23,341 bases of DNA. It comes from a virus. The notes under the pieces are model-generated. The model had not been told where the DNA came from. It did not search any database and saw only the letters and a program-made list of their open reading frames with translations. Shown here one piece after another: positions 744-16,809 of the stretch. Positions within the stretch are counted from its first letter, which is position 1, and each line of letters opens with the position of its first letter. Both the position numbers and the translations under genes were made by a program. The stretch spans positions 1-23,341 of IMG/VR virus record IMGVR_UViG_3300017776_000194. One strand, given 5' to 3'.

Positions 744-1247
744 ATGAAAGAATTACCATACTTTAAATTTTATCCATCACAATGGATTACGGGCAACATA
801 AGCTTTTTAAGCTTTAAAGAACAAGGAGCATTTATGAAAGCATGTTGCTTTTATTGGGCGCAAGATTGCAAATTAAAAACACAACAAGTTAAAAGAATAA
901 TTGATGAAGATTTATACAATTCATTATTAGATAATGGATTAATAAAATCTGATGGTGAATATATAATAATATCATGGTTGGATGAACAATTAGAAGAAAG
1001 GAAAAAAAGACATGAAGCTAATGTAAAAAATGGTAAGAAAGGCGGCAAAAAATCTGCTGAATTAAGAGCATCAAACCAAGGGGGGCTTGAGGGTGGCTCA
1101 AGGGTGGGGGTTGACCATGGCTCAAGCATTAAGATAAGAAAAGAAAAGATAAGAAAAGAAAAGATAAAAGGGGTTGTAGGGGAAAAACAATTTTCTGACC
1201 CAAATTTACATGTTGATGATGAATTAAAAAATATTTTAACCAAATGA
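744..1247 (+). CDS. DUF1376-like replication initiator / organizer protein
   Basis: The N-terminal 90 residues match the DUF1376/YdaU type of phage replication protein: PYFKFYPSQWITGNISFLSF, then EQGAFMKACCFYWAQ, then a short helix-strand segment ending in SWLDEQLEERKKRHE. These winged-helix-like domains bind the phage origin. The middle (about 95-145) is low complexity, Gly/Ser-rich and then KIRKEK-rich, and is encoded by a strange G-rich block plus a tandem repeat (see the origin feature). The C-terminal tail (about 150-167) is acidic and could contact the helicase, by analogy with lambda O and other organizers. The stop codon overlaps the ATG of the ATPase gene by 4 nt (ATGA), so the two proteins are probably translationally coupled and act together in replication initiation. 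Confidence 0.75.
   Translation: MKELPYFKFYPSQWITGNISFLSFKEQGAFMKACCFYWAQDCKLKTQQVKRIIDEDLYNSLLDNGLIKSDGEYIIISWLDEQLEERKKRHEANVKNGKKGGKKSAELRASNQGGLEGGSRVGVDHGSSIKIRKEKIRKEKIKGVVGEKQFSDPNLHVDDELKNILTK
1078..1167 (+). other. Candidate replication origin inside the initiator gene
   Basis: A G-rich island at about 1078-1128 stands out from the A+T-rich background. It holds three copies of CTCAAG: inverted at 1086-1091, direct at 1097-1102 and 1121-1126. The longer TGGCTCAAG is repeated exactly at 1094-1102 and 1118-1126, 24 bp apart. The first two copies form a hairpin (CTTGAG-ggtgg-CTCAAG). Immediately downstream is a purine-only-like A-rich tract with a 15-bp tandem repeat (1132-1167). Iteron-like repeats followed by a strand-asymmetric AT-rich tract inside an initiator gene is the architecture of lambda ori within gene O. 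Function is inferred from this layout. Confidence 0.5.
1132..1167 (+). repeat. 15-bp tandem repeat, 2.4 copies
   Basis: The unit agataagaaaagaaa occurs at 1132-1146 and 1147-1161, with a partial third copy (agataa) at 1162-1167. It encodes IRKEK-type repeats in the initiator protein. The strand is almost entirely A and G, so it could serve as an easily melted, strand-asymmetric segment next to the G-rich repeats upstream. Confidence 0.85.
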
Positions 1248-2104
1248 TTTTAAAAAACAAAGATTCATTAGATTATTTATTTAGGTTTCAGGAAGGTAAA
1301 ATAAAACTTGGTTTAGGTATTAATACAGAATTAGATAATTACATTAGATACAAGCAAGGTAATTTCAATGTTATTGTAGGACTTGACAATGTTGGTAAAA
1401 CTGCTTGGATATTATACTACTTTCTTTGCTTAACTAAACACCATAATATTAAACATGTTATCTGGTCAGGTGAAAATAAAGCTGGTCAATTAATAAGAGA
1501 TTTAATTCAAATGTATACTGGTAAAAAATTAAATGAATTAACTAAAGAAGAAATAAGATTTAATAATAATTTATTAAGTAAGTATTTTATTTTTATAGAT
1601 AATTCAAAAGTATATGACCATAAAGAATTATTTAAACTATTTAAAGAATCTGGTGCGGATAATTGTTTAATTGACCCTTTTACTGGCATGAACCACAATA
1701 GAAGTGTTAACCAGTTTGAACGTAATTACCAATTTTGTAATGATGTTAGACAATTTTGTAATGAAACTAAAAAATCAGTTTACATAAATACACATCCACA
1801 AACAGAATCAGCAAGGAGAGTTTATCCAGCTAATCATTTATTGGAAGGTTACATACAACCTTGTAAAAAATCAGATGTGGAAGGTGGCCAAGTGTTTGCA
1901 AACAGATGTGATGACTTTATAAGCATACATAGATTAATTAACCACCCTGATTTATGGATGCTAACAGAAATTAGAATAGAAAAAATTAAAGACAAGGAAA
2001 CTGGTGGGAGATGTACAAACCTTTCTGAACCTTTGAGATTTGACTTCAATGCTGGAATGGGTTTTACAATTGGCGGTGTAAATGCTTTAAAAACTAAAAA
2101 CTAA
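1244..2104 (+). CDS. DnaB/RecA-fold replicative ATPase (probable helicase)
   Basis: A 286-residue single-domain P-loop ATPase. It has an N-terminal lead (KLGLGINTELDNYIRYKQGN), Walker A GLDNVGKT at 46-53, a WSGENKAGQL segment at about 74-83 that fits the RecA-fold strand-2 glutamate, and Walker B NCLIDPF at about 140-146. A sensor-type strand (YINTHPQTESARR) lies near 180-192. This combination is typical of Bacteroidota phage proteins related to the DnaB/AAA_25 group. It lacks the N-terminal primase-binding domain of full DnaB, so it is about half the usual size. ATGA overlap with the DUF1376-like initiator supports an initiator-helicase (or helicase loader) pair. It could be a loader rather than the helicase itself. 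Confidence 0.8.
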   Translation: MILKNKDSLDYLFRFQEGKIKLGLGINTELDNYIRYKQGNFNVIVGLDNVGKTAWILYYFLCLTKHHNIKHVIWSGENKAGQLIRDLIQMYTGKKLNELTKEEIRFNNNLLSKYFIFIDNSKVYDHKELFKLFKESGADNCLIDPFTGMNHNRSVNQFERNYQFCNDVRQFCNETKKSVYINTHPQTESARRVYPANHLLEGYIQPCKKSDVEGGQVFANRCDDFISIHRLINHPDLWMLTEIRIEKIKDKETGGRCTNLSEPLRFDFNAGMGFTIGGVNALKTKN

Positions 2105-2641: not shown

Positions 2642-2777
2642 ATATAGACAAGTAAAAGATAGTGTTTATACACATCCTCACCAAAGGATAAATAAAAACA
2701 TAATTAAACACTATTGTGAGTTATACCCTAATGACAAAGAACTTGGAGAACAAATAAGAAAATTATATTTTAAATGA
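2622..2777 (+). CDS. 51-residue basic protein of unknown function
   Basis: A small basic protein (MKTNLNKYRQVKD at the start, ending EQIRKLYFK) with His-containing segments (TYP-like SVYTHPHQRINKN and IIKHYCELYP). It overlaps the preceding gene by 20 nt, and its stop codon overlaps the ATG of the methyltransferase gene (ATGA), which supports translation. I do not recognise a family. A small DNA-binding or accessory role is possible because of the charge, but this is a guess. Confidence 0.5.
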   Translation: MKTNLNKYRQVKDSVYTHPHQRINKNIIKHYCELYPNDKELGEQIRKLYFK

Positions 2778-3424
2778 AGATATTAAATTTATATGCTTGT
2801 TTAGGTGGTAACAGGTACAAATGGGATGAGGTTACAGATATTGAAGTAACAGCAGTTGAATTAGATGAAGAACTTGCAAAATTATATAAAGAAAGGTTTC
2901 CTAATGATAAAGTAATTGTAGCAGATGCACATGAATATTTATTAGAGCATTATAAAGAATTTGATTTTATTTGGAGTTCGCCACCCTGTCCAACACATTC
3001 TTCTTTTCAACATTCTATGAAAAACAAAAGAAAAATGAAGTATCCAGATATGAAATTATATGAAGAGATTATTTTATTGGATAATTTTTTTAATGGCAAA
3101 TATTGCGTAGAAAATGTAATACCATTTTATAAACCATTAATACCAGCAAAAAAAAGGCATAGACATTTATTTTGGACTAATTTTAATTTACCTAATGATT
3201 TAACATATAGAAATCCTCCAAACATCACAAGAATAGATAATGAATTAAAATCTTGGATAAAATTTTATAATTATGATATAACTAAATATAAAGGCAAAAA
3301 AGATAAAAGAAGATTATTTAGAAACATGGTTGATTATGAAGCTGGTAAAACAATATTAGAAACAGCAGTAGGAATAACAAGAAAACAAAATGTAAAACAA
3401 AAAACTATATTTGATGAATCCTAA
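2774..3424 (+). CDS. Compact cytosine-C5 DNA methyltransferase-like protein
   Basis: A Rossmann-type SAM-dependent methyltransferase. Motif I is LNLYACLGGNRYKW (4-17), the acidic motif II residue lies in VTAVELDEEL (E29), and motif III is VADAHEYL (49-56). Motif IV is FIWSSPPCPTHSS with the expected catalytic Cys72. ENV (113-115) matches motif VI, and RHRHLFW (128-134) resembles the QRRxRxF motif VIII. A late NMVDYEAGKTILETA segment fits the last conserved motifs. At 216 residues it is far shorter than typical C5 enzymes (over 300), with little room for a target-recognition domain. No restriction partner is near, so it is probably an orphan that protects phage DNA or marks it for replication or packaging. 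Confidence 0.8.
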   Translation: MKILNLYACLGGNRYKWDEVTDIEVTAVELDEELAKLYKERFPNDKVIVADAHEYLLEHYKEFDFIWSSPPCPTHSSFQHSMKNKRKMKYPDMKLYEEIILLDNFFNGKYCVENVIPFYKPLIPAKKRHRHLFWTNFNLPNDLTYRNPPNITRIDNELKSWIKFYNYDITKYKGKKDKRRLFRNMVDYEAGKTILETAVGITRKQNVKQKTIFDES

Positions 3425-3656: not shown

Positions 3657-4022
3657 ATGGGAGGAAGGTCAAGCCAACAAAAGGGCAAAAGATTTGAATT
3701 ATCTATTGCTAATAAACTAAAAGAATTATTTAAAATTAAAGTAAGAAGAACACCATTAAGTGGTGGAATGGATTTCAAAGGTGACATTATTTGTATTGAT
3801 GACAATAGTATAATAAGTGAATTTAGTTTTGAATGTAAAAATCAAGAAAAGCTAAACATCTGGAAGGCATTAGAACAAAGCAGAAATGATGCACCAAGAG
3901 GCAAAACACCATTAGTAGTATTCACTAAAAACTTTCAATTAGATTATTGTGCAATAGAATTTAATGACTTTTTAAATTTATTATTAGAACTTGAAGAATT
4001 TAGGAATGAAAAAAATTTATAG
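3657..4022 (+). CDS. Holliday-junction-resolvase-like PD-(D/E)XK nuclease
   Basis: A 121-residue protein with the archaeal-Hjc/RecU-like nuclease core: KGKRFELSIANKLKE with Glu14 near the N-terminus, VRRTPLSGGMDFKGDI with Asp43, and FECKNQEKLNIWKALEQ with the E-x-K pair 59-61. These are the E...D...ExK metal-binding residues of PD-(D/E)XK resolvases. In phages such enzymes cut branched DNA before packaging. This fits its position upstream of the terminase genes. Starts 3 nt after the preceding gene. A related VRR-NUC-type nuclease with another substrate is the main alternative. Confidence 0.8.
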   Translation: MGGRSSQQKGKRFELSIANKLKELFKIKVRRTPLSGGMDFKGDIICIDDNSIISEFSFECKNQEKLNIWKALEQSRNDAPRGKTPLVVFTKNFQLDYCAIEFNDFLNLLLELEEFRNEKNL

Positions 4023-4034
4023 TTTTGTAACAAG

Positions 4035-4535
4035 GTGGATAAAAATAAAGTATTATCATTATTAGCTGAATACCATAATAAATGGATTTCAAATGTTGAT
4101 GCTTTAATAAATGATGAAAACATAGATGCAGAAGATATAGTACAAGATATGTATTTAAAAATTCATGGTTCAAAAGATGAAGTAATTAAAAAAGCAATAC
4201 AAAACAATAAACCACATATTGGATATGTGAATAAAATTTTGTACACTATGTATTTAAATGCACAAAAACAAGAAAGCTTAAAAACAGAATTAAAAGATAA
4301 CCATACAATAGAAACTAAAGAACCTGAAATAAACAAATTCAATATAGAAAAGAAGATAGATGAAATAGTAAATTCTTTTTATTGGTTTGATAGAAAACTA
4401 TTTAATTTATACAGAAAGGAATTTCACACAATTAGAAGCTTAAGTAAAGCAACTAAAATTAGTCATGTAGTAGTACAAAACACCATAAGCAAGTGTAAAA
4501 AAAAAATTAAAAGAAAATTAAAAAATGAAATCTAA
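4035..4535 (+). CDS. Phage sigma-70-family-like factor
   Basis: GTG is the only usable start: an in-frame stop lies 15 nt upstream (the TAG ending the previous gene) and no other start codon lies between. Residues 30-44 (IDAEDIVQDMYLKIH) match the region 2 signature of ECF-type sigma factors (x-AEDIVQDxxLxL). The C-terminal 40 residues (about 122-166) form a region-4-like helix-turn-helix (LYRKEFHTIRSLSKATKIS, then VVVQNTISKCKKKIKRKL). The middle is a variable linker. At 166 residues it is ECF-sized. It overlaps the next gene by 11 nt. It likely redirects host RNA polymerase to phage promoters; the repeated 37-bp element at 6528 and 15174 is a possible target. A role without sigma activity cannot be excluded. 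Confidence 0.7.
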   Translation: MDKNKVLSLLAEYHNKWISNVDALINDENIDAEDIVQDMYLKIHGSKDEVIKKAIQNNKPHIGYVNKILYTMYLNAQKQESLKTELKDNHTIETKEPEINKFNIEKKIDEIVNSFYWFDRKLFNLYRKEFHTIRSLSKATKISHVVVQNTISKCKKKIKRKLKNEI

Positions 4536-9639: not shown

Positions 9640-11813
9640 TGCAAGAATTAATATTATATATTAGGCCACAATTTAGAAACAATGTCACACAAGATTATGT
9701 GAAGGTAGATATGTTTAGTGATGAAAATGTAACATTAACACAAGTCATACAAGATGTAAGAGATATTGACAAAGTATTTACAGATTTTTCACAGACGTTT
9801 AGTTTGCCAGCATCACAAATTAATAATAAACTATTTCAACATTGGTACAATCCTGATATAGATGGATTTGATAGCAATATACAAAGTGAAGCAATCATTG
9901 AACTAAATTACCAACCTTTTAAAAGTGGCAAAATACAACTTCAAGAAGTTAAGATGAAGAACAATAAGCCAAGTGTTTACAAGGTTACTTTTTTTGGTAA
10001 AACAGTTTCATTAAATAATACATTTGGTGAGGACCAGTTAGATGATTTAGTTTGGTTAAATAATTTCACTTTTGCAAATAATTATGCTAATGTAAAAGCT
10101 GGTTTAAATTTAGGATTAGATTTTACTGTTAATTCTGTTTCATATACTGATGCAATTATACACCCATTAATTTCAAGGCAACAAAGATATATTTTTGATA
10201 GTAGTGGGAATGGTTCAGATGCTGGAAATATTTCAGCTTCACTTGCAACTAATAATGGTAAAAGAGGTGTATTCCCAGAAGATTTAAAACCAGCTATAAA
10301 AGCAAGTTTAATAATTAAGGCAATAGAAGAACAATACGGAATTACATTTAAATCAAGTGAATTTTTTGATTCAACTGAATTTAGTAATTTATATTTATGG
10401 TTAAATAGAAAAATAGGAAAGTATTCTTTTATTTATGATGTAAGTGTTAGCACTACATTTTCTTGTGTTAATGATATTAGTGGTTCTTGTACATTTTTTG
10501 CATCAACCTCAACTTCATTATTTGATAATGGTAAATATAAAATTAAATCAGTTACTGACAGAGATGTTTTTACTTATAAAGCAACTGTAACACCAACAGT
10601 AGCAACTGCAATTTATACAATAGAAATAGTTGATGAATTAACAGATACAGTAGTAGCAACAATTACTGGAAGTGGTACACAAAATGTTTCAGTTTTGTAT
10701 GCTTTAATTTCTAATACTCAAATTCCAATTGGAGAATCTAAACATTTAGTCACAAGAGTTGTTTCAAATGCTGCATTAACTTTTTCATTAGAATTACAAG
10801 TTGATTATGATGAAATTTCTGGTGTTACTACATTACAATCTTATCAAAGCACATATACTTCTTCTGGTTCAATAAATGCAGTTGCTGCCAATTTGTTTCC
10901 AACACAAGAAATACCAGAAATGAAAATACTTGACTTTTTAAAAGGTTTATTTAAGCAATTTAATTTAACTGCATTTCTAAATGATAGTGATGAAATAGTA
11001 GTAAAAACATTAGATTATTTTTATGGTGATTCTTCTACTACTCATGATATTAGCCAATATGTTAAAACAGATGAAAATACAGTAAGTGAAGCATTGCCAT
11101 TTACTGACATTAATTTTAGTTATCCTGAAGCAAGTACAAAACTATCACAAGCATATAGCAACATTCACAATAGACAATATGGTAAATTAGATTATGAAGC
11201 CAATGCAAGTAGGGGTTCACAATATAAAATAGATTCACCATTTGGCCATATGTTATTTGAAAGATTACAAGATTTAGATGATGATTCATATACAGAAATA
11301 CAATATGGTTTAAGTGTTAATGAATCTGATAATGAAGTATTAACAAAACCATTATTATTTTATGGAGTTTACCAATCATCAATAAGTAGTGCAATTAATA
11401 TGATAGATAATGTTAGACCTGAAGATGGCGGTTTACCAAGCGGTTCAGTATCAAATGATTCATTAACTGCTTATTGGATGCCTCACAATGCAAATGAATT
11501 AGGAACTGCATCTACTGCCCCAGCATTTAATTTAAACTTTGGTAGTGAAATAAATAGTTACACATTAACTGACTATGGTGGAAACAATAATTCTTTATTT
11601 CAAAAGTTTTATGAAAATTATATAGTAAGAGTATTCAATACAAGAACAAGAATATTTAAATACAAAGCCATATTACCATTAAAGTTTTTATTAACTTATT
11701 CATTAGCTGATAAAGTTTTTGTAAATGGAAGGGCATTTACTATAAATAAAATAACAACTAAACTACAAACTGGAGAATCATCACTTGAATTATTAAATGA
11801 ACCAACATCATGA
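9639..11813 (+). CDS. Large tail/baseplate protein
   Basis: A 724-residue virion protein of a type common in Bacteroidota phages. Near the N-terminus it has DIDKVFTDFSQTFSLPAS and NNKLFQHWYNPDIDGF, a conserved marker segment. A Thr/Val-rich insertion at about 265-405 reads like one or two beta-sandwich (Ig-like) units. It is followed by MKILDFLKGLFKQFNLTAFL (near 428) and DEIVVKTLDYFYG. The C-terminal end (VFNGRAFTINKITTKL-like, TGESSLELLNE) resembles endings of tail hub proteins. It starts by a 1-nt overlap and ends overlapping the next small gene (ATGA). A central hub/baseplate function is inferred from size and place before the tape measure. Confidence 0.6.
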   Translation: MQELILYIRPQFRNNVTQDYVKVDMFSDENVTLTQVIQDVRDIDKVFTDFSQTFSLPASQINNKLFQHWYNPDIDGFDSNIQSEAIIELNYQPFKSGKIQLQEVKMKNNKPSVYKVTFFGKTVSLNNTFGEDQLDDLVWLNNFTFANNYANVKAGLNLGLDFTVNSVSYTDAIIHPLISRQQRYIFDSSGNGSDAGNISASLATNNGKRGVFPEDLKPAIKASLIIKAIEEQYGITFKSSEFFDSTEFSNLYLWLNRKIGKYSFIYDVSVSTTFSCVNDISGSCTFFASTSTSLFDNGKYKIKSVTDRDVFTYKATVTPTVATAIYTIEIVDELTDTVVATITGSGTQNVSVLYALISNTQIPIGESKHLVTRVVSNAALTFSLELQVDYDEISGVTTLQSYQSTYTSSGSINAVAANLFPTQEIPEMKILDFLKGLFKQFNLTAFLNDSDEIVVKTLDYFYGDSSTTHDISQYVKTDENTVSEALPFTDINFSYPEASTKLSQAYSNIHNRQYGKLDYEANASRGSQYKIDSPFGHMLFERLQDLDDDSYTEIQYGLSVNESDNEVLTKPLLFYGVYQSSISSAINMIDNVRPEDGGLPSGSVSNDSLTAYWMPHNANELGTASTAPAFNLNFGSEINSYTLTDYGGNNNSLFQKFYENYIVRVFNTRTRIFKYKAILPLKFLLTYSLADKVFVNGRAFTINKITTKLQTGESSLELLNEPTS

Positions 11814-15867: not shown

Positions 15868-16809
15868 ATGGCAACAAGTTTAACAACTACATATGCTGGT
15901 GAATTTAAAGATAAATACATTGCAGCAGCATTAACAAGTGGAAAAACACTTGACAATGGAGGTGTAACAATACTTCCAAACATTGCTTATAAAGAAGTAA
16001 TGCAAAAATCAGTAATGGGTGATGATTTAATAGTAAATGCTGGGTGTGATTACACTGATGCTGGTACTTTAACACTTACTGAAAGAGTTCTTGAAGTAGA
16101 AGAATTTCAAATTAACAAAACAGAATGTAAAAAGACATTTGCTCAATCTTGGCAATCTGCTGAAATGGGTTATTCTGTACAAAACCAAAGTTTACCAAAA
16201 TCATTTGCAGATTTTATTGTTCAGCAGTATGTGGCTAAAATTGCTGCTAAAACTGAAACTACAATTTGGAGTGGCGTTACGGCCAATCCGGGAGAGTATG
16301 ATGGATTTACAACTATTGCTGGTGCTAACATAGCTGATTTAGCTGGTGGTGCAATTGTAGTTGGAACAGATGTTACTGCTTCAAATGTAATTACTGAATT
16401 AGGCAAGGTGGTTGACCATGTTGCTACTAACACTCCTGCAATCTTAGATAAAGAAGATTTAAGAATTTATGTTGGAAACAAAGTATTTCAAGCTTATGTA
16501 AGAGCACTTGGTGGTTTTGCATTAACTGGTGGTGCTGGTACTGATGATAAAATGACACAATGGTATAATGGTGGTGGACTTACTTTTGATGGTATTCCAA
16601 TCTTTTTAGCACCGGGTATGCCAGCTAACAAAATGATGTGTACGCAAATTTCAAACCTATTCTTCGGATGTGGTGTTCTTGGAGATTTATCTGAATTAAG
16701 ATTAATTGATACTGCTGATACTTTAGGTGACCAAAATGTAAGATTTGTTGCACGTTTTAAAGCTGGTGTTCAAATCGGTCTTTTAGGTGAAGTAACTTAT
16801 TATACCTAA
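15868..16809 (+). CDS. Major capsid protein
   Basis: A 313-residue protein in the usual size range for HK97-fold capsid proteins. It begins MATSLTTTYAGEFKDKYIAA, has an early E-rich segment (RVLEVEEFQINKTECKKTF), an SWQSAEMGY segment and a long helix (LPKSFADFIVQQYVAKIAAK, about 110-129) consistent with the spine helix. Later come DLRIYVGNKVFQAYVRAL and, near the end, GIPIFLAPGMPANKM, typical of Bacteroidota phage capsids. No N-terminal delta domain of the HK97 type is visible, consistent with a separate scaffold-like gene. Followed by a G/C hairpin. Probably the most highly expressed gene here. Confidence 0.85.
   Translation: MATSLTTTYAGEFKDKYIAAALTSGKTLDNGGVTILPNIAYKEVMQKSVMGDDLIVNAGCDYTDAGTLTLTERVLEVEEFQINKTECKKTFAQSWQSAEMGYSVQNQSLPKSFADFIVQQYVAKIAAKTETTIWSGVTANPGEYDGFTTIAGANIADLAGGAIVVGTDVTASNVITELGKVVDHVATNTPAILDKEDLRIYVGNKVFQAYVRALGGFALTGGAGTDDKMTQWYNGGGLTFDGIPIFLAPGMPANKMMCTQISNLFFGCGVLGDLSELRLIDTADTLGDQNVRFVARFKAGVQIGLLGEVTYYT

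Follow-up and report, generated by a model that had tools for sequence, protein, structure and literature searches.

Most phage origins of replication are unmapped. In bacteriophage lambda (NC_001416), the origin lies in the middle of the initiator gene O, where four iterons of 18 bp, spaced at 20, 24 and 23 bp, are followed after a short gap by a run in which purines are distributed asymmetrically between the strands; a review describes the A+T-rich region as having almost all of its purines on one strand (PMC5043065). In Tuc2009 (NC_002703), the rep gene (rep2009) is annotated 'contains origin of replication', and four 11-bp repeats (GCAACCAAGTG, TCAACCATTCC, GCAACCAAATG and ACAACCAAATG) precede a tract with a 5-bp period; Rep2009 is reported to bind the direct-repeat regions inside its own gene, which serve as ori (PMC8965321). 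TP901-1 also has its origin in the rep gene, where inspection by eye found iteron-like repeats and no purine pentad tract; it was therefore set aside as a second positive control. SPP1, compared here through its published description, has two origins, oriL in gene 38 and oriR in intergenic DNA, both reported to consist of direct repeats with an AT-rich unwinding region (PMC6316719). In oriC, the chromosomal origin of Bacillus subtilis, TnnT motifs that lie in pairs on one strand are reported to be bound by DnaD (PMC10201434).

The DNA analyzed here, hereafter the window, is an IMG/VR virus fragment of 23,341 bases, an incomplete genome. In our assessment, as judged from sequence comparison, the block at 1084-1173 very probably serves this phage as its replication origin, acting in cis as DNA from inside the linker of the phage's own initiator gene. 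The relevant features, all on the + strand, are as follows:

744..1247, +: initiator ORF, 167 aa, matching phrog_29280 (2.8e-19) and phrog_9327 'primosomal protein' (5.4e-6)
744..1076, +: proposed iteron binder, the N-terminal winged-helix-like domain and the following helix (aa 1-111) in the AlphaFold model
1085..1092, +: iteron 1, GCTTGAGG, 8 bp
1096..1103, +: iteron 2, GCTCAAGG, 11 bp after iteron 1
1109..1116, +: iteron 3, degenerate, GGTTGACC, with 2 mismatches to GCTHRAGC, 13 bp after iteron 2
1120..1127, +: iteron 4, GCTCAAGC, 11 bp after iteron 3, fused to ATTAAGA and anchored in 81/81 ORFs of the family described below
1131..1173, +: purine tract of AAGAN pentads, with a 15-bp tandem repeat (1131-1167) inside it
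1089..1196, +: linker (aa 116-151) with pLDDT < 50 in the model, overlapping most of the iteron/tract block
1218..1241, +: C-terminal helix (aa 159-166) in the model, with similar tails in an alignment
1244..2104, +: DnaB/RecA-like helicase ORF, matching phrog_18375 (7.5e-24)

The helicase ORF, which also matches DnaB-like and primase-helicase profiles, overlaps the initiator stop with its start by four bases (ATGA). Between it and the terminase gene lie ORFs resembling a C5 cytosine methylase (2774-3424), a RusA/PDDEXK nuclease (3657-4022) and a sigma factor (4035-4535).

A preliminary description of this DNA had pointed to a G-rich island carrying repeats and followed by a strand-asymmetric A/G tract, and each of these elements was recovered. 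The G-richest 50-mer of the window starts at 1077, and the 50-mer at 1078, with a GC content of 0.64, falls in the top 0.05% of window 50-mers. CTCAAG occurs three times within 41 bases, once inverted (1086-1091, - strand) and twice direct (1097-1102 and 1121-1126, + strand); as a hexamer it is not rare across the window (6 found versus 6.64 expected). The exact repeat TGGCTCAAG, at 1094 and 1118, 24 bp apart, was seen in 0/100 shuffles. If exact direct repeats of 9-mers are required to have five or more G/C and a spacing of 9-40 bp, it is the sole one in the window. Because the iteron core is nearly palindromic, the direct and inverted CTCAAG copies are one element, and the repeats are better read as four near-palindromic iterons of 8 bp, spaced at 11, 13 and 11 bp. 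In the tract, the 15-bp tandem repeat AAGATAAGAAAAGAA runs through 1131-1167 at 100% match, and the 43-mer 1131-1173 contains 40/43 purines, a unique maximum in the window. The window is AT-rich, with about 10% of its 40-mers less stable than the tract; purine asymmetry, rather than low stability, is the standout property of this element.

Of the earlier proposal of a lambda-type origin, the layout stands while the family assignment does not. As in lambda, four iterons are followed by a run with strand-asymmetric purines; the site lies inside the initiator gene, between the DNA-binding and C-terminal parts; the tract adjoins the iterons on the same side and in the same orientation; and a helicase-related gene is the neighbor of the initiator gene. 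In contrast, where lambda-O origins have iterons of 18-20 bp at about two helical turns, the window has 8-bp cores at 11/13/11 bp; the next gene encodes the DnaB/RecA-like helicase rather than a helicase loader like lambda P; and its initiator lacks an O-like family match, with no O-like phrog found for the ORF at E <= 0.01 in the profile search. With direct repeats and a putative unwinding tract inside an initiator gene, the window has what broadly defines an in-gene iteron origin, and it appears to be of this kind, lambda-like in layout and outside the lambda-O family. Tuc2009 shares with it the in-gene position and the succession of 11-bp repeats and a tract of 5-bp period, but has another iteron sequence, pentads of the GATAG/GTTAG type with more T, and a Gram-positive host. 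By analogy, the origin of the window probably works like those of lambda, SPP1 and Tuc2009. There is also a likeness to B. subtilis oriC, in which double-strand binding sites stand beside a short-unit repeat that is recognized as single strand: the complement of the AAGAN pentads is a run of TnnT, as in the DnaD element, a weak motif that serves as a lead only. Unlike the window, oriC is a bacterial chromosome origin with DnaA. In one relative, phage phi10:1 (KC821618), a gene at 16259-16720 is annotated 'DnaA protein' and is of possible interest for origin firing.

The AlphaFold model of the initiator has a mean pLDDT of 72.6, with a confident winged-helix-like N-terminal domain (pLDDT 90-94 in blocks 21-90). 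Residues 112-144, approximately, are encoded by the iteron/tract block and fall mostly within the unstructured linker at 116-151, in agreement with the earlier placement of the repeats in the linker. The C-terminal helix is a possible helicase-contact peptide, going by the model. A Foldseek search with the model returned 0 matches at E <= 0.001 (best E 0.097); the N-terminal domain of DnaD (2vn2) is a weak match at Z 5.7, unrelated winged helices score Z 5-7 as well, and the VIA-align rows are without power to exclude any fold. The initiator had been called DUF1376-like. The protein itself has no Pfam family at E <= 0.01, DUF1376 (PF07120) included, although the depositors of a homolog, morran9-1 gp44, annotated it as PF07120.

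Initiator binding, melting, strand choice and helicase loading are steps that we infer. The winged-helix domain of the initiator would bind the iterons, copies of which, being spaced about one helical turn apart, would come to lie on the same face of the helix. Strain from the phased initiator would then open the adjoining purine tract, which we propose to be an unwinding or single-strand capture element. One open strand would be captured, perhaps the T/C strand with its TCTTN repeats, which is suggested by the fit of TCTTN to the TnnT motif recognized by B. subtilis DnaD. Loading of the DnaB/RecA-like helicase, the product of the gene that follows, would take place at the opened tract.

The repeats could alternatively do no more than encode a charged, flexible linker, the DNA pattern being a by-product of amino-acid choice or of codon slippage. 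The stretch is of low complexity and predicted to be disordered, simple repeats do slip, and of the three frames of a coding pentad tract just one is open, so that the encoded peptide is always similar. What such a by-product would not be expected to do is persist when the reading frame changes. A protein search with the window initiator yielded relatives of which 80 of 136 were kept, giving with the window 81 ORFs (family A); these collapse to 16 at 90% identity, so counts over the 81 are not independent, and all counts are samples. The tract with the last-iteron motif is present in 81/81, as is a second iteron copy, spaced exactly 11 bp from the last iteron on its upstream side, and the earlier expectation that related phages would keep the repeats was thus borne out. 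Compared with GCTHRAGC, this upstream copy is perfect in 63 ORFs, with one mismatch in 9 and two in 9, against a background in which two or fewer mismatches occur at only 194/19,440 positions. Yet the shared block GGCTCAAGCATTAAGA is read in one frame in the clade of the window (10 ORFs; GGC TCA AGC ATT AAG) and in another in the remaining 71 (GCT CAA GCA TTA AGA or a variant); L007 and L009, which carry GACTCAAGC, were put in the window clade by eye.

The strength of this out-of-frame identity was assessed by keeping both proteins and reshuffling their synonymous codons 300 times per relative. The longest identity between the window and L011, 16 nt, was matched by 0/300 reshuffles, and the observed values were likewise reached in 0/300 for L012, L013, L014, L019 and L034, and in 1/300 for L016; the result is weak for L035 (14 nt) and L017 (13 nt), with 8/300 each. 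Over conserved N-terminal residues, identical codons range from 41/57 (L011) down to 24/44 (L034). Repeats exceed the synonymous null in 8/16 family A linkers, compared with 1/16 N-terminal control regions, and do not exceed it in the other 8/16 linkers. By eye, the same linker in morran9-1, Arctus_1, phi10:1 and Nekkels_1 contains a purine-rich tract and repeats particular to each phage. L002-L081 share a nearly identical 5' part, but on the 3' side of the tract their C-terminal peptides are exchanged among several unrelated modules (..DNLLKVNDEVQKLLDQ, ..DPYLTTTFIK, ..TDSINQYLKEK.. and, in L080, a longer domain), which gives the origin the look of a recombination joint.

GC skew, which the preliminary description had put forward as a further check, does not point to the site. 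Cumulative minima lie away from the homologous site by 6.1 kb in phi10:1, 5.5 kb in morran9-1 and 5.4 kb in Arctus_1, that is, in 3/3 complete relatives, probably because skew follows gene direction; in the window it is positive almost throughout. Skew was therefore dropped as an origin marker.

The block also exists where it encodes nothing. The pattern AAGCATTWAGA, scanned in 34 contigs (33 of the family and L142), has 48 matches, compared with 0 for the reversed control pattern. Sixteen contigs have two matches, and one second site was examined in each. In 15/16 this site consists of iterons and tract with no open frame longer than 35 codons (G011, G012, G014, G016-G022, G026, G027, G029, G030 and G033), in the same orientation as the in-gene site; 12 lie directly behind the terminase gene. 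The second site of G024 was rejected as a chance match. L142, in which a related gene follows the terminase, has a gap of about 790 bases that contains four GGCTTAAG-type repeats and the tract. These intergenic copies speak against the pattern being a by-product of the linker peptide. Together with the in-gene sites, they form a candidate two-origin system that mirrors the in-gene and intergenic origins of SPP1, whereas the window itself has one copy only: no second site was found behind its own terminase. By the exact AAGCATTWAGA pattern, the window and the contigs of its clade have one site each, except for two contigs that have none. In L231, L268, L299, L300 and L315, intergenic AAATG(C/G)TNAGC repeats with exact 11-bp spacing, a different iteron family, accompany a pentad tract; the DNA examined yielded no in-gene partner for them.

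The existence of two sites in relatives, and the fact that the window is only a fragment, raise the question of whether the initiator binds the in-gene site in a secondary role only, as at a late origin or fork barrier comparable to SPP1 oriR, with the main origin outside the fragment. One of the two SPP1 sites has indeed been proposed to stall forks, but the in-gene oriL is reported to be bound by gp38 and to serve theta replication, which was reconstituted in vitro (PMC6316719). In addition, the window clade retains only the in-gene site in the DNA examined. A merely secondary role thus seems to us quite unlikely, and we continue to regard the in-gene block as the probable origin.

The tract extends well beyond this family. 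A scan with a 19-mer tract pattern, whose figures refer to the matches listed, found at least 106 distinct contexts, at least 67 in ORFs of 90 codons or more and at least 39 not; among the latter matches listed, 38/39 do not fall within an ORF that reaches 80 aa, and L307 lies within an ORF on the opposite strand. Dereplication left 62 of the listed sites. In 52/62 of them, 14 or more of the 90 upstream nt are covered by repeated 7-mers; among control windows taken at the same loci the fraction is 26.8%. Among the 48 tract-bearing ORFs listed, 34 match named initiator, primosomal, replisome or replication families, and five match, of the relevant phrogs, only phrog_29280 of the window, unnamed extras aside (phrog_19415 in L277 and phrog_15768 in L266); of the rest, one matches only phrog_15768, five have no match and three are plainly unrelated. 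The Pfam families among the listed ORFs are Phage_rep_org_N (4), DUF1376 (4), Lin1244_N (4) and DnaT (1). Three matches, in a virion protein (L204), an antirepressor (L210) and a repressor (L228), have a repeat coverage of 0 and were rejected as chance; they were left out of the spacing counts and tract profile (62 to 59 sites), while seven further sites scoring 0 in the 7-mer test were retained.

In 38/59 of these listed sites the nearest-copy repeat spacing is 11 bp, compared with 2.3% of 5,530 control windows. As 11 is not a multiple of three, neighboring iterons are read in different frames, and the persistence of this spacing in 27/47 coding sites, alongside 11/12 non-coding sites (matches listed), is hard to reconcile with a pattern dictated by amino acids. 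The pentad rhythm continues past the searched 19-mer: positions -4 to -1 of the listed sites read AGAT at frequencies of 0.85, 0.85, 0.88 and 0.76. In L082, 28 nt identical to part of the tract of the window stand behind wholly different repeats, which at 10440-10545 are G/C-rich iterons of another type directly before the tract, in an ORF without a phrog match.

The block could also be an autoregulatory operator, whose iterons the initiator would bind to govern its operon, or an element acting in RNA, in translation or processing. Initiators are often self-regulating, and most of the intergenic copies among the matches listed are in the sense orientation relative to flanking genes. However, the copies lie in the middle of genes or behind the terminase, away from gene starts, and one (L276) is antisense to both flanking ORFs. 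Tuc2009, with the same anatomy, is reported as a demonstrated origin (PMC8965321). We attach very little probability to an operator or RNA element in place of an origin.

Initiators chosen without reference to the tract give a further view of the origin. Family B comprises initiators of the Phage_rep_org_N type that were retrieved with the first 120 residues as query, with 80 of 455 kept and 59 remaining after dereplication; N-terminal queries of two other families gave 4 and 3 loci only, and were left out of the statistics. Of 54 family B linkers, 80% have repeats at 12-bp spacing, and repeats exceed the synonymous null in 31/54, compared with 5/54 N-terminal control regions. The linkers contain a purine-rich stretch with a sequence unlike the AAGAN tract. 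In the charged stretch, Ile is encoded by ATA in 86/92 cases versus 276/1,054 elsewhere, and Arg by AGR in 43/44 versus 351/686, with p-values that are too small owing to the relatedness of the members. Across families A and B, the net charge of the linker varies from -0.78 to +0.56 per residue, while mean purine content is steady at about 0.87-0.88. Neither the codon bias nor the varying charge fits a sequence maintained for the sake of a charged linker, and we consider that explanation highly improbable. Conservation in a second frame, retention in 81/81 relatives, intergenic copies and codon choice instead support the earlier suggestion that selection acts on the DNA of the block rather than on the peptide. 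KIREDKIRED and KIRKDKIRK stretches in phage initiators would be explained as DNA signals, not protein features. As family B has repeats with a different purine stretch, the exact AAGAN pentad would thus be one type within a wider purine-tract theme.

The AAGAN tract common to unrelated initiators appears to be a new part; with the 11-bp phase, it seems to set this origin apart as a new variant. In the literature searched, judged from titles and the openings of abstracts, we recognized no description of a tract shared across phages, and five chosen tract strings (peptide or DNA) retrieved no paper. The two-part signature of repeats about 11 bp apart and a purine pentad tract spans several unrelated initiator families as well as intergenic DNA, and would allow the origins of metagenomic phages to be located in a manner open to testing. 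A conserved tract with variable iterons raises the question of which protein reads the tract. Tentatively, and with rather less than even confidence, we suggest that AAGAN/TCTTN is a single-strand recognition code shared by many unrelated phage initiators, with private iterons and pentads read by a common partner. Candidates for this reader would be a conserved feature of the helicase or helicase loader, or a DnaD-type mode of capture. If true, the code would give phages an equivalent of the DnaA-trio / DnaD recognition element, and phage origins could be found from sequence alone.

In bacterial genomes, 88 tract stretches were reported, of which 80 loci were examined and 78 scored. Repeats are over the threshold in 39/78, compared with a control fraction of 0.25; the tract alone is therefore not diagnostic, and many of the bacterial matches are chance or unrelated. 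The tract sites in eight contigs (L328, L336, L347, L353, L359, L367, L375 and L384) have the look of prophage origins, with repeats and then the tract. As the titles of these contigs include Bacillales, Endomicrobia, Thermoguttaceae, Phycisphaerae, Clostridia, Desulfovibrionaceae and others, the iteron/tract layout may span phyla.
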